Source: an uncultured Granulosicoccaceae bacterium (GTDB lineage Bacteria; Pseudomonadota; Gammaproteobacteria; Granulosicoccales; Granulosicoccaceae). From it: a DNA stretch of 40,402 nucleotides. This document shows, piece after piece, positions 21,940 through 40,402 of the stretch. Both the position numbers and the translations under genes were made by a program. Position 1 is the stretch's first letter. Each line of letters opens with the position of its first letter. The stretch lies in NCBI GenBank assembly GCA_938020525.1, contig CALIHW010000131.1, forward strand, positions 1 to 40,402, in the 5' to 3' direction. Under the pieces are notes generated by a model that saw only the letters and a program-made list of their open reading frames with translations, had not been told where the DNA came from and made no database searches.

Positions 21940-23061
21940 ATGAGCGGACCACTCAAAGGCCTCACTGTAGTTGAGATGGCGGCCATTGGACCAGTGCCAT
22001 TGGCCGGCCAGTTAATGGCCGATCTAGGCGCAACAGTTATTATTGTTGATCGCAAGAGTTCGGCAGCAGTTGTTACTGACATTAACCGCCGTAACAAGCA
22101 GTCCATCGCAGTTAACCTAAAAAGCACAGAAGGCCGCGATGTTTTACTTCAGGTACTGAGTAAAGCCGATATCCTGTTAGAAGGATTCAGGCCAGGTGTT
22201 ATGGAGAAACTATCACTAGGCCCTGATGAGTGTCATCAAACCAATGCTGGCCTAATCTATGGTCGAATGACTGGTTGGGGTCAGGATGGGCCTCTTAGCA
22301 AGACAGCAGGCCATGATATCAATTACCTGGCTATCACTGGTGCTTTGCATGCAATTGGCTTAGATGACAAGCCTCCGGTACCGCCGTTGAATCTGGTGGC
22401 AGATTATGCGGGTGGCGCAATGTTTCTGGTGATGGGGGTATTGTCAGCACTGCATGAAAGGCGGCAATCAGGCAAAGGGCAGGTGATAGATGCGGCAATG
22501 ATTGACGGTGTGCCATCGATTATGGGCTTTATTCAGAACCTCTATCATGATCAACAATGGTTGCCGGAACGGCAGAGCAATATGCTTGACGGTGGAGCGC
22601 CATATTATCGGTGTTATAAGACTGCCGATGATAAGTACATTGCTGTGGGTGCAATAGAACCTCAGTTTTTTAAAGAGCTAATTGAGTTATCTGGTATGCA
22701 GGAATCTGAGTTGGATATTCAGAACGATCGTGCAAAGTGGCCCGAAACACATGCGCGCTTTGAACAGCACTTTAAATTACGTACACGAGCTGATTGGATG
22801 AAAATATTTGAAGGCACTGATGCCTGTGTGGCACCGGTATTGGATTTTGAGGAAGCACCGAATCACGATCACAACAAACAACGATCCGTTTTCAATGGTT
22901 CTAGGTTTGAAGCATCGCCTGCGCCGAGATTTGATCGTACTCCGGCTTTAGCGCCATCTGCACCGGTGGTGGTGGGTTCAAGTACTGTTGAAGTTTTGTC
23001 TCGCTTGGGTGTTGATGCTGATGAACTGAAAAGGTTACGTAGTGCTGGAGTACTTACTTAG
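21940..23061 (+). CDS. Alpha-methylacyl-CoA racemase (CaiB/BaiF CoA-transferase family)
   Basis: 373 residues of the CaiB/BaiF fold. The catalytic residues known from the mycobacterial racemase are found at nearly the same positions: His125 in GHDINYLAI, Asp155 in LNLVADYAGG and Glu240 in GAIEPQFF. This supports racemase rather than CoA transferase. Predicted reaction: epimerisation of (2R)- and (2S)-methylacyl-CoA esters, for breakdown of branched acids. AAGGAT precedes the ATG. It is alone on its strand, preceded by a terminator and followed by the tandem-repeat array. A desaturase lies convergent beyond the array, but no beta-oxidation genes are adjacent. Confidence 0.9.
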   Translation: MSGPLKGLTVVEMAAIGPVPLAGQLMADLGATVIIVDRKSSAAVVTDINRRNKQSIAVNLKSTEGRDVLLQVLSKADILLEGFRPGVMEKLSLGPDECHQTNAGLIYGRMTGWGQDGPLSKTAGHDINYLAITGALHAIGLDDKPPVPPLNLVADYAGGAMFLVMGVLSALHERRQSGKGQVIDAAMIDGVPSIMGFIQNLYHDQQWLPERQSNMLDGGAPYYRCYKTADDKYIAVGAIEPQFFKELIELSGMQESELDIQNDRAKWPETHARFEQHFKLRTRADWMKIFEGTDACVAPVLDFEEAPNHDHNKQRSVFNGSRFEASPAPRFDRTPALAPSAPVVVGSSTVEVLSRLGVDADELKRLRSAGVLT

Positions 23062-23068
23062 CTATTTC

Positions 23069-23541
23069 TATCCTGAAACATGGGCCCCTCTTGCAAAGCA
23101 AAAAACGCTTTGTATTCTCCCGAGGGAGAATGTCGATTCGGGGTTTTGATAAGCGTTAGAGTGACACCCTCCAGGGGGAGGGTCGGCGTCTAAGCGCCGG
23201 GGAGGGGCAAGTCGCTCAGACCTTTCAGTTTAACCTGAAGCATGGGCCCCTCTTGCAAAGCAAACAACGCTTTGTATTCTCCCGAGGGAGAATGTCGATT
23301 CGGGGTTTTGATAAGCGTTAGAGTGACCCCCTCCAGGGGGAGGGTCGGCGTCTAAGCGCCGGGGAGGGGCAAGTCGCTCAGACCTTACAGTGGTTTATAA
23401 CCGGAAGTATGGGCCCTGTTGCAAAGCAAAAAACGCTTTGTATTCTCCCGAGAGGGAGAATGTCGATTCGGGGTTTTGATAAGCGTTAGAGTGACAGCCT
23501 CCAGAGGGAGGGTCGGCATATAAGCGCCGGGGAGGGGAATG
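23069..23541 (+). repeat. Tandem array A: three copies of a 144-167 bp structured repeat
   Basis: Copies run about 23069-23230, 23231-23397 and 23398-23541. Each holds four possible stem-loops in order: CAAAGC/GCTTTG around an A-rich loop; ATTCTCCC/GGGAGAAT with loop GA (GAGA in copy 3); CCCTCC/GGAGGG with loop AGNG; and CGGCG/CGCCG. The array fills the gap between two convergent genes and contains no coding frame I trust. The same family lies inverted at 39952 to the window end. The sequence between the array and the desaturase stop is AT-rich with nothing recognisable. Confidence 0.9.
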
Positions 23542-23582
23542 TTAATCAAGTCGTGTTACAGACAAAGTAATTCCATTTTTAA

Positions 23583-24473
23583 TTACTTCAGAGTTTTATA
23601 CAGCTGACTGTTAAATTCGCCATAGCTTCGATTGGTATGCTGGAGGTACGTGGCCAACTGCCTGTGCAGCGAAGGCAGCTGATGAAACGGTACTGCGGGA
23701 AAGATATGATGTTCTGTATGATAGGGCATATTCCAGGTAAACCACCTGACTATCGAACAGCACAGTACGGTTCTGGTATTTAGAAACATATCATCAGTGT
23801 TCTCACAAAGAGTGTGCTCCGCGAGCAGGTATAGTCGTAGGAATGGTTGGCCGATTACCAATGGCACAATCCAGACCCAGAATAGCGCGGTACTTTGGAA
23901 AACAAAACTTGTTATAAATAGTAAGACGTACCCAAAACACATGATTCTCGCTTGCTTGATGACTGAGCTGCGCGCACTGTCTGGAATGAAGCTATCGTTA
24001 ACCGAGCCTGTACTGCATTTTGAAATGACTTTTAAAAGTGATAAGAATACAGGTATGCCGCTGACATGTATTAGCCACTGTCTTTTTGTTGCGGGTTTAC
24101 TTGTTTCAAGTTCTGGATCTTTACCCTCAATCTGAGTATAACGATGATGTTCACGATGAAAGTATCGGAACCACTCGGCGGGAAGCAGAAGGATAAACCC
24201 GCAGATTGAACCAACCATCGGGTTTAATCTTCGGGAACGAAAAGGTGTGTCGTGAATGCATTCATGTTGCAGATGAAACAGGCTGACTATTAACAGCCCC
24301 TGGGGGAGTAATAGTAGTGGCCAGATACTGGATTGACTCAGTATCCCGATCGAAAAAACCGCGAATAGAAGTACCAGAGTGCCAAGCCGGAGCAATGCGC
24401 TGGTGTCTGTTTTCTCAGTTAGTGAGCGCTTTTCATTCGGAGAAAGTTGGCGCAAGAAATCTCGGTGATTCAT
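23583..24473 (-). CDS. Membrane fatty-acid desaturase family protein
   Basis: 296 residues with four to six hydrophobic spans and the three histidine boxes of the di-iron membrane desaturases: HECIH (70-74), HREHH (106-110) and HTEHH (252-256). It is an integral inner-membrane enzyme expected to desaturate or hydroxylate a fatty acyl or related lipid chain. The family also includes carotenoid ketolases and hydroxylases, so the substrate is open. No strong ribosome-binding site precedes the ATG. It lies 16 bases after the TPP-enzyme gene on the same strand, so the two are probably cotranscribed. No electron-donor gene is adjacent. Confidence 0.85.
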   Translation of the reverse strand: MNHRDFLRQLSPNEKRSLTEKTDTSALLRLGTLVLLFAVFSIGILSQSSIWPLLLLPQGLLIVSLFHLQHECIHDTPFRSRRLNPMVGSICGFILLLPAEWFRYFHREHHRYTQIEGKDPELETSKPATKRQWLIHVSGIPVFLSLLKVISKCSTGSVNDSFIPDSARSSVIKQARIMCFGYVLLFITSFVFQSTALFWVWIVPLVIGQPFLRLYLLAEHTLCENTDDMFLNTRTVLCCSIVRWFTWNMPYHTEHHIFPAVPFHQLPSLHRQLATYLQHTNRSYGEFNSQLYKTLK

Positions 24474-39923: not shown

Positions 39924-39951
39924 TTTATAAGCGGGCTAATTCCTAAAACGT

Positions 39952-40402
39952 CATTCTCCCTCGGGAGAATACAAAACGTTTTTTATTTTGCAAGAGGGGA
40001 GATGGTTCAGGTTATAAACATGCTGTATGGTCTGGGCGGCTTGCCCTTCCCTCTGGAGGGTGTCGGTGCCCGATGTTTATCTATACCCCGAAACGACATT
40101 CTCCCTCGGGAGAATACAAAGTGTTTTTTACTTTGCAAGAGGGGAGGTGGTTCAAGTAATAAATTACTGTATGGACTGAGGGACTTGCCCCTCCCTCTGG
40201 AGGGTGTCGGTACCCGCTGTTTATCTATACCCCGAAACGACATTCTCCCTCGGGAGAATGCAAAGTGTTTTTTACTTTGCAAGAGGGGAGGTGGTTCAGG
40301 TTACAAACATACTGTATTGTCTGAGCGGCTTGCCCCTCCCCGGCGCTTAGACGCCGACCCTCCCTCTGGAGGGTGTCGGTACCCGATGTTTATCTATACC
40401 CC
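39952..40402 (-). repeat. Tandem array B: inverted copies of the same repeat family, running off the window end
   Basis: Copies begin at 39952, 40097 and 40241 (periods 145 and 144). Read on the minus strand they match array A, including CTCTTGCAAAG, the ATTCTCCC/GGGAGAAT hairpin, CCCTCCAGAGGGAGGG and CTCAG near the unit end. Copies 1 and 2 lack a segment of about 24 bases containing the CGGCG/CGCCG hairpin, while copy 3 keeps it. The missing piece lies between short GGGAGG repeats, as expected of slippage. Confidence 0.88.

Follow-up and report, generated by a model that had tools for sequence, protein, structure and literature searches.

Two arrays of short tandem units on one contig of an uncultured Granulosicoccaceae bacterium keep their hairpins while the letters of the stems change. 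A sequence-only reading had taken this as a sign of selection for a folded RNA or DNA hairpin and had proposed an undescribed structured repeat or small-RNA family. The question is whether such matched changes point to an RNA, to cis elements of mRNA 3′ ends, to debris of transposons, or to mobile palindromes. Throughout, the window is the whole 40,402-nt stretch, which is contig C131 of a draft genome of 4.53 Mb (224 contigs, 93.3% complete).

Array A lies between two facing genes and consists of three tandem units that start at 23069, 23231, and 23399 (spacing 162 and 168 nt), each an X module followed by a Y module (Table 1). Array B is reversed and runs into the contig end. The sequence-only reading had described one unit common to both arrays, with stem I reading CAAAGC/GCTTTG in array A, CAAAGT/ACTTTG in two array B copies, and CAAAAT/GTTTTG in the third, and with the stem II loop of array A copy 3 enlarged from GA to GAGA on an intact stem; each of these details was confirmed. 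Its four stem-loops per copy hold for array A, where stems I–IV are present in 3/3 copies (stem IV being weaker in copy 3). They do not hold for two of the three array B copies (near 40045 and 40189), which are without stem-loop IV, apparently deleted between two GGGAGGG repeats. The claimed position just past gene ends also stands: The first X of array A begins 24 nt after the CoA-transferase ORF (end 23061), and the nearest X of array B lies 19 nt past the GST-like ORF (end 39923).

Two further features of the unit were considered. A protein-coding tandem repeat was rejected, as unit lengths of 144, 145, 162, and 168 keep no single frame. Array A Y copy 1 contains four G-tracts between 23173 and 23207 (GGGGGAGGG..GGGGAGGGG), with a hairpin within the middle loop, and these tracts could form a G-quadruplex on the + strand.

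Table 1. Arrays, modules, and related elements; positions refer to the window unless a locus label is given
Feature	Position	Strand	Details
Array A, X-Y-X-Y-X-Y (three tandem units)	23069..23541	+	Gap between facing CoA-transferase (+) and fatty acid desaturase (-) genes
X module, array A copy 1	23085..23146	+	Stem I 23094-23099/23107-23112; stem II 23114-23121/23124-23131
Y module, array A copy 1	23162..23218	+	Stem III 23167-23172/23177-23182; stem IV 23185-23188/23195-23198; tail GGGGAGGGG 23199-23207
X module, array A copy 2	23247..23308	+	
Y module, array A copy 2	23324..23380	+	
X module, array A copy 3	23414..23476	+	Stem II loop GAGA
Y module, array A copy 3	23492..23540	+	Stem IV weakened, GGCA/CGCC, loop TATAAG
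Array B, reversed, ends at contig end	39942..40402	-	Downstream of GST-like gene (+)
X module, array B	39942..39999	-	Stem I CAAAAT/GTTTTG
Y remnant, array B, without stem IV	40045..40083	-	Borders by eye
X module, array B	40084..40144	-	Stem I CAAAGT/ACTTTG
Y remnant, array B, without stem IV	40189..40227	-	Borders by eye
X module, array B	40228..40288	-	Stem I CAAAGT/ACTTTG
Y module, array B, complete	40322..40377	-	
287-bp TIR element, example	L078 1840-2126 (G000 C203)		
~320-bp TIR elements	L132 1064-1387; L133 1254-1581; L136 1476-1794; L137 1015-1330		

Judged from sequence, X is the backward form of the module that Y presents forward. The layout comprises a tag GNC, hairpin 1 (A YY CTCC .. 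GGAG RR T), hairpin 2—a near-constant loop on a stem free to vary—and a purine-rich tail (AAGAGGGG or GGGGAGGGG). Y reads GAC-A-CCCTCC..GGAGGG-T-C-[GGCG]TCTAAG[CGCC]-GGGGAGGGG; X in reverse reads GNC-ATTCTCCC..GGGAGAAT-[stem I, loop GTNGTTT or GTTTTTT]-AAGAGGGG or similar. Run over 35 stretches containing 58 Y modules (E up to 10), a covariance model derived solely from X hit 25 of them on the opposite strand and one on the same strand. Seven of the 25 reach E < 0.001 (best 3.8e-7), many are weak, and the sole same-strand match is an X that overlaps a Y at its edge. Along the arrays X and Y alternate and, since the X model matches Y on the opposite strand, the X-Y arrays are best described as modules in alternating orientation.

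The two orientations carry different subtypes of the hairpin. Hairpin 1 has TT/AA in 93 and CT/AG in 29 of the 140 reversed X that fit the search pattern (193 X examined), and CC/GG in 18 of the 21 fitting Y (33 Y examined); five X with CC/GG, which probably lie on Y modules, were left out of the X counts. The X set of alignment A3 includes a few weak matches on Y modules (L134, L136, L137, and L167). Tags before hairpin 1 are mainly GTC (67), GAC (33), and GCC (28) among the 140 reversed X, and GAC in 20/21 Y. A second Y type, with the hairpin GGACGCGGTAGCGGCC (GTAG in its loop), replaces the TCTAAG type in L024, L027, L037, L038, and L039. At L033 57-287, a decayed module has a hairpin 1 loop in which a GA microsatellite has expanded.

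The unit is abundant in the source genome and narrowly distributed outside it. BLAST places the array A unit at 76 sites, and a covariance model trained on 58 X copies (of 70 full-length ones, interrupted or decayed copies excluded) finds at least 148 X modules (best 150 of 1587 candidates scored). Under stricter filters in 57 genomes, 35 X modules occur in G003 and 2 in G005, with none in the other 54. The Y pattern is present in 3/14 genomes of the genus: 39 times in the source genome, 32 in G003, and 15 in G009. Across 84,980 species, each represented by one genome in a search that may omit records of the source genome itself, the stem I-II pattern was found in three stretches, all in one Granulosicoccaceae MAG, the relative G003. 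Viral contigs gave 0 matches for X and 0 for Y, and no literature report of such repeats in Granulosicoccus was found among the matches listed. In at least 19 of the 36 initially retrieved stretches, repeats lie no more than 1 kb from a contig end, and they therefore seem to cause assembly breaks.

Within these genomes the clusters occupy extragenic sites close to stop codons. With ORFs mostly inside repeats dropped, 39/40 clusters overlap no ORF of ≥300 nt; when the threshold is 240 nt and repeat ORFs are kept, 6/40 overlap a mechanical ORF. The facing stop codon is at most 65 nt away in 20 of 30 cases. The 20 clusters with both neighbors fall in 12 unidirectional, 6 convergent, and 2 divergent gaps, scarcely different in type from comparison gaps in the same loci (104, 23, and 23, respectively). 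Where exactly one gene 3′ end faces the cluster (24 clusters), X is antisense to the gene in 15 and sense in 9.

Comparison with relatives indicates both gain and persistence. In 5/5 relatives where the CoA-transferase and desaturase genes were found together, the two are adjacent without array A, separated by roughly 17 to 216 nt versus 521 nt in the source genome. An X-Y-X array elsewhere (G000 C52 in the source genome, C34 in G003) is at the same place in both species. Its X-Y core is identical at 131/143 positions (Y, 55/57) versus 62–91% per 100 nt around it, and its last X has decayed in the source genome. The gene downstream, recognized by eye, we take to be efp. The shared array may reflect either function in cis or conversion between copies.

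Three more sites differ between the two genomes. At the third, G003 has an X just past the stop codon; in the source genome an X begins there and is interrupted by a TIR element, beyond which the sequence differs from that of G003. A fourth intergenic site holds a single X in the source genome and two Y pairs in G003, the latter (L138 1091-1740, C3) arranged as two tandem ~355-bp units of paired Y modules with AGCG and GGAG stems. A fifth has arrays in opposite directions (L053 and L041). The picture is of arrays that turn over and occasionally survive long.

These positions bear on the possibility that the arrays act in cis at mRNA 3′ ends, as terminators or stabilizers selected at each gene. 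We regard this as very unlikely: An intrinsic terminator consensus is absent in array A, array A itself is absent in 5/5 relatives, orientation is mixed, and such a role needs no tandem growth. What it would explain is the closeness to stop codons, the strong predicted hairpins, and the one array conserved in place.

The matched stem changes that raised the question are numerous. Stem I occurs as 41 distinct arm pairs, of which 17 are fully paired (wobble allowed) versus 6.2 in shuffles, with 0/20,000 shuffles reaching 17. These counts use 183/193 copies, 10 with stem I gaps having been dropped, and they score the CCGGCGC class as not fully paired on account of its unmatched loop-closing pair; alignment A2 took in 150/159 matches. 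The large classes among the 183 are GCAAAGC (57), CCGGCGC (39), and CCAATGC (39), and smaller matched variants include CGAAAGC, GGAAAGC, and GCAAAGT, with CCAACAC in G005. Three loops—AAACTAC (75), AAACAAC (61), and AAAAAAC (30)—account for 166/183 copies. In the 58 aligned X, 7/7 stem I pairs have changed on both sides and 95.1% of cells are paired, whereas the outer X stem shows such changes in 0/4 pairs. For the whole X structure, covariation is 0.128 versus a shuffled mean of 0.083 (0/500), and eight pairs changed on both sides, seven in stem I and one in stem II, versus 3.9 in shuffles (3/500).

Stem IV gives a more mixed result. Across three genomes, 72/86 modules pair at all four positions (68 by Watson–Crick pairs only), with six Watson–Crick types around TCTAAG; the search pattern itself fixed that loop, allowing one mismatch, and these 86 are uninformative on its constancy. 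Among Y modules found by profile, 30/33 have the loop TCTAAG. Of 17 types (from 82/86 sequences), 9 are paired against a shuffled mean of 3.8, with 16/20,000 shuffles at least as high. In the 33 aligned Y, stem IV covariation is 0.402 versus 0.174 when shuffled and at most 0.106 when slid. Both-side changes (3 vs. 2.1; 153/500) and pair types (7 vs. 7.3; 402/500) in the same alignment do not exceed shuffles. Shuffle tests ignore relatedness, and these last two counts are the measures least misled by it.

A homemade tree-aware test of X (60 simulated sets, 145 sequences) found no significant pair: The best structural pair had E = 2, and the top pair overall was a nonstructural one, columns 16-39, at E = 0.08. 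The stem I columns within the model changed only 1–6 times on the tree. There are many matched stem variants, and they come from a modest number of events. Pairing has been kept through sequence change on near-fixed loops, as the sequence-only reading held. It had also named the finding that would speak against it, namely many copies genome-wide with changes at random, no covariation, and no transcripts. The copies are indeed many; random change without covariation was not seen, and the tree-aware test was not significant.

Would an RNA explain this pairing? The three array A stretches are predicted to fold better than dinucleotide shuffles (z −4.24, −3.30, and −4.39), into a multihairpin domain closed by an outer pairing CCCCTC/GAGGGG. 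That X and Y are one module in opposite orientation accounts for this outer pairing. Folding of the reverse strand is about as strong (z −4.39, −2.81, and −3.35), and the single array B stretch that was folded gave z −2.20, with 4/200 shuffles equally good. No sigma-70 promoter or terminator consensus was found in 22900-23700, the array A region. On the G-rich strand, G·T pairs show no excess over A·C pairs (stem I, 8 G·T and 11 A·C; stem IV, 4 and 10).

Homology searches bear on the same point. No Rfam family reaches its gathering score in the window, in keeping with the earlier proposal that the family is undescribed. A permissive Rfam search of 23000-23600 matched the trypanosome snoRNA TB9Cs1H3 to X three times (best E 0.0014), which we discarded as chance, this being a two-hairpin model from the wrong host. 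Whalefall-1 RNA (RF01762) gave seven matches in 48 genomes. Five fall within Y modules and share their orientation (best 28.1 bits), one coincides with an X and runs the same way, and the last comes from a different genus, in a stretch that lacks these repeats; 0/48 genomes exceed its gathering score of 37. The matches over the whole model, all sub-threshold, include 23163-23208 in the window (Y copy 1) and G003 C94 8241-8286.

Y weakly resembles Whalefall-1, to go by the letters. Both run through a hairpin, GAC/TC, a second hairpin, and a G-rich tail, and the likeness spans the whole model in the window's Y copy 1 and in five Y modules elsewhere. Y scores of 15.9 to 28.1 bits against 37 make it a nonmember by the Rfam rule. 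Whalefall-1 is listed as certainly RNA in PMC2864571.

That the unit is a structured noncoding RNA in many tandem copies, its stems kept for RNA folding, is therefore the reading best served by Whalefall-1, by the closed multihairpin domain predicted at z −3.3 to −4.4 in the array A copies, and by the array conserved between two species. We nonetheless judge it unlikely: The Whalefall-1 matches all fall under the gathering score, the reverse strand folds about as well, orientation to neighboring genes is not fixed, array A lacks the promoter and terminator consensus, and wobble counts give the G-rich strand no advantage. The small-RNA part of the original proposal fares no better, with X antisense to 15 and sense to 9 genes, no promoter- or terminator-like sites in 22900-23700, G·T pairs not above A·C, and array A not common to relatives. 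A small RNA is neither supported nor called for by the evidence.

The same modules also sit inside TIR elements. Two kinds, ~287 bp (261–298) and ~320 bp (316–328), have a common TIR, GAGGGTGTCG(N)NAAAG. The former holds two inverted X-type modules with stems CCGGCG and CCAATG, and the latter two inverted Y-type modules with stems GGCG and CGAG. Because the two modules of an element differ in stem, each can fold alone and not with its mirror module. In the stretches of the source genome, 26 TIR pairs of 250–335 bp enclose a module loop, one of them (L032) probably spurious; 10/26 have perfect 5-bp target repeats, and 12/26 have halves of hairpin 1 on both flanks. The commonest mismatched hairpin 1 class, CC with AA (six), resembles what a TIR element inserted into the hairpin would leave at its junctions. 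No TIR-bearing transposase or autonomous copy was seen among the matches listed (one transposase domain was searched), and the 1.9–2.0 kb loci of two PF05598 genes lack this TIR.

The arrays could be debris of such GAGGGTGTCG.. transposons, the modules having spread with the elements. Neither array A nor array B, though, showed a TIR at its ends, with at most loose look-alikes inside B; their stem I is unlike both stems of the 287-bp element, and neither an autonomous copy nor a TIR-bearing transposase appeared among the matches listed. We find this origin quite unlikely, even with one TIR shared by the module pairs of the ~287- and ~320-bp elements, perfect 5-bp repeats in 10/26, and a Y that visibly begins GACACCCTC, like the TIR end. 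The elements themselves resemble MITEs in their TIRs and 5-bp target repeats (10/26), their coding capacity being judged by size, and depart from MITEs in carrying inverted pairs of two-hairpin modules; the arrays have no TIRs that we could see. Their insertion at hairpin centers parallels IS elements in REP centers, as described in PMC1525189, and the differing stems of their two modules parallel the REP heterodimers of PMC3733652.

The comparison that fits best is with REPs and BIMEs. Four reports (PMC3733652, PMC1525189, PMC2817692, and PMC3116915) describe these as more than 100 short extragenic palindromes, in tandem clusters with alternating orientation, downstream of genes, with matched stem changes, and targeted by mobile DNA. 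The modules are alike in copy number, extragenic placement near stop codons, alternating orientation, stem subfamilies, and the mobile DNA they attract. Unlike GTAG REPs and REPINs, they have two hairpins rather than one, no GTAG tag before hairpin 1, and no Y1 (RAYT) transposase found in the source genome. The search for the REP transposase (Y1_Tnp, PF01797) gave 0/1 genome, 93.3% complete, and its control was positive in 5/14 genomes.

CGTC REPs stand closer to some modules than to others. According to PMC3733652, this group, which includes Neisseria dRS3, has a CGTC/TGTC tag, an AT start, and a CCA tail, and the superfamily is apparently without a dedicated transposase. Modules of the 287-bp element come near this, with a TGTC/AGTC tag, an 8-bp hairpin 1 stem from A, and a CCG/CCA tail: The CCGGCG type has the TGTC tag in 32/37 and the CCG tail in 35/37, and the CCAATG type has the AGTC tag in 21/23, the CCA tail in 23/23, and a stem that starts AC. 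Array X differs, with mostly GAC or GCC tags, an ACA tail (36/46 of the array type), loops mostly of 2–3 nt, and a second hairpin with a conserved loop that follows. The comparison rests on the 115/193 copies with a canonical stem II, set against a published stem of 8–9 bp, a loop of 4–5, and CGTC/TGTC/CCTC tags.

We consider it probable that these arrays represent REP/BIME-type mobile extragenic palindromes, and the cross-model match of X to Y strengthens that explanation. We place the repeat set within the REP/BIME kind, apart from RAYT-linked REPs and from Whalefall-1. We infer that the modules spread through a trans-acting protein that would recognize their hairpins during replication, when the DNA is single-stranded or extruded as a cruciform. 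Such a protein would read loop and tag, and in the stem only pairing would matter. Arrays would lengthen by tandem duplication, shorten by slippage, and persist right after stop codons, where insertions would harm least; an effect on mRNA 3′ ends may follow as a secondary matter.

Several observations weigh against the REP/BIME explanation: no REP transposase was found in the source genome, the tree-aware test of X was null, the least-biased measures of stem IV stay at shuffle level, the outer X stem is unchanged on both sides, and one array has been kept in two species. Target duplication, moreover, is defined for no X-Y array itself.

A more far-reaching version, which we hold to be doubtful, is a REP-like system without RAYT in which one two-hairpin DNA module has two settings, free alternating arrays and the inner pairs of TIR transposons. 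A putative hairpin-binding recombinase would fix the loop while the stem drifts, and Whalefall-1, a listed noncoding RNA from whale-fall metagenomes only, would be another member.

To the known REP-like families the analysis adds one for which the search detected no RAYT. The repeats also raise a testable doubt that Whalefall-1 is an RNA. More generally, stem changes that match from copy to copy of a repeat are no proof of a small RNA: Mobile hairpin DNA produces the same pattern.
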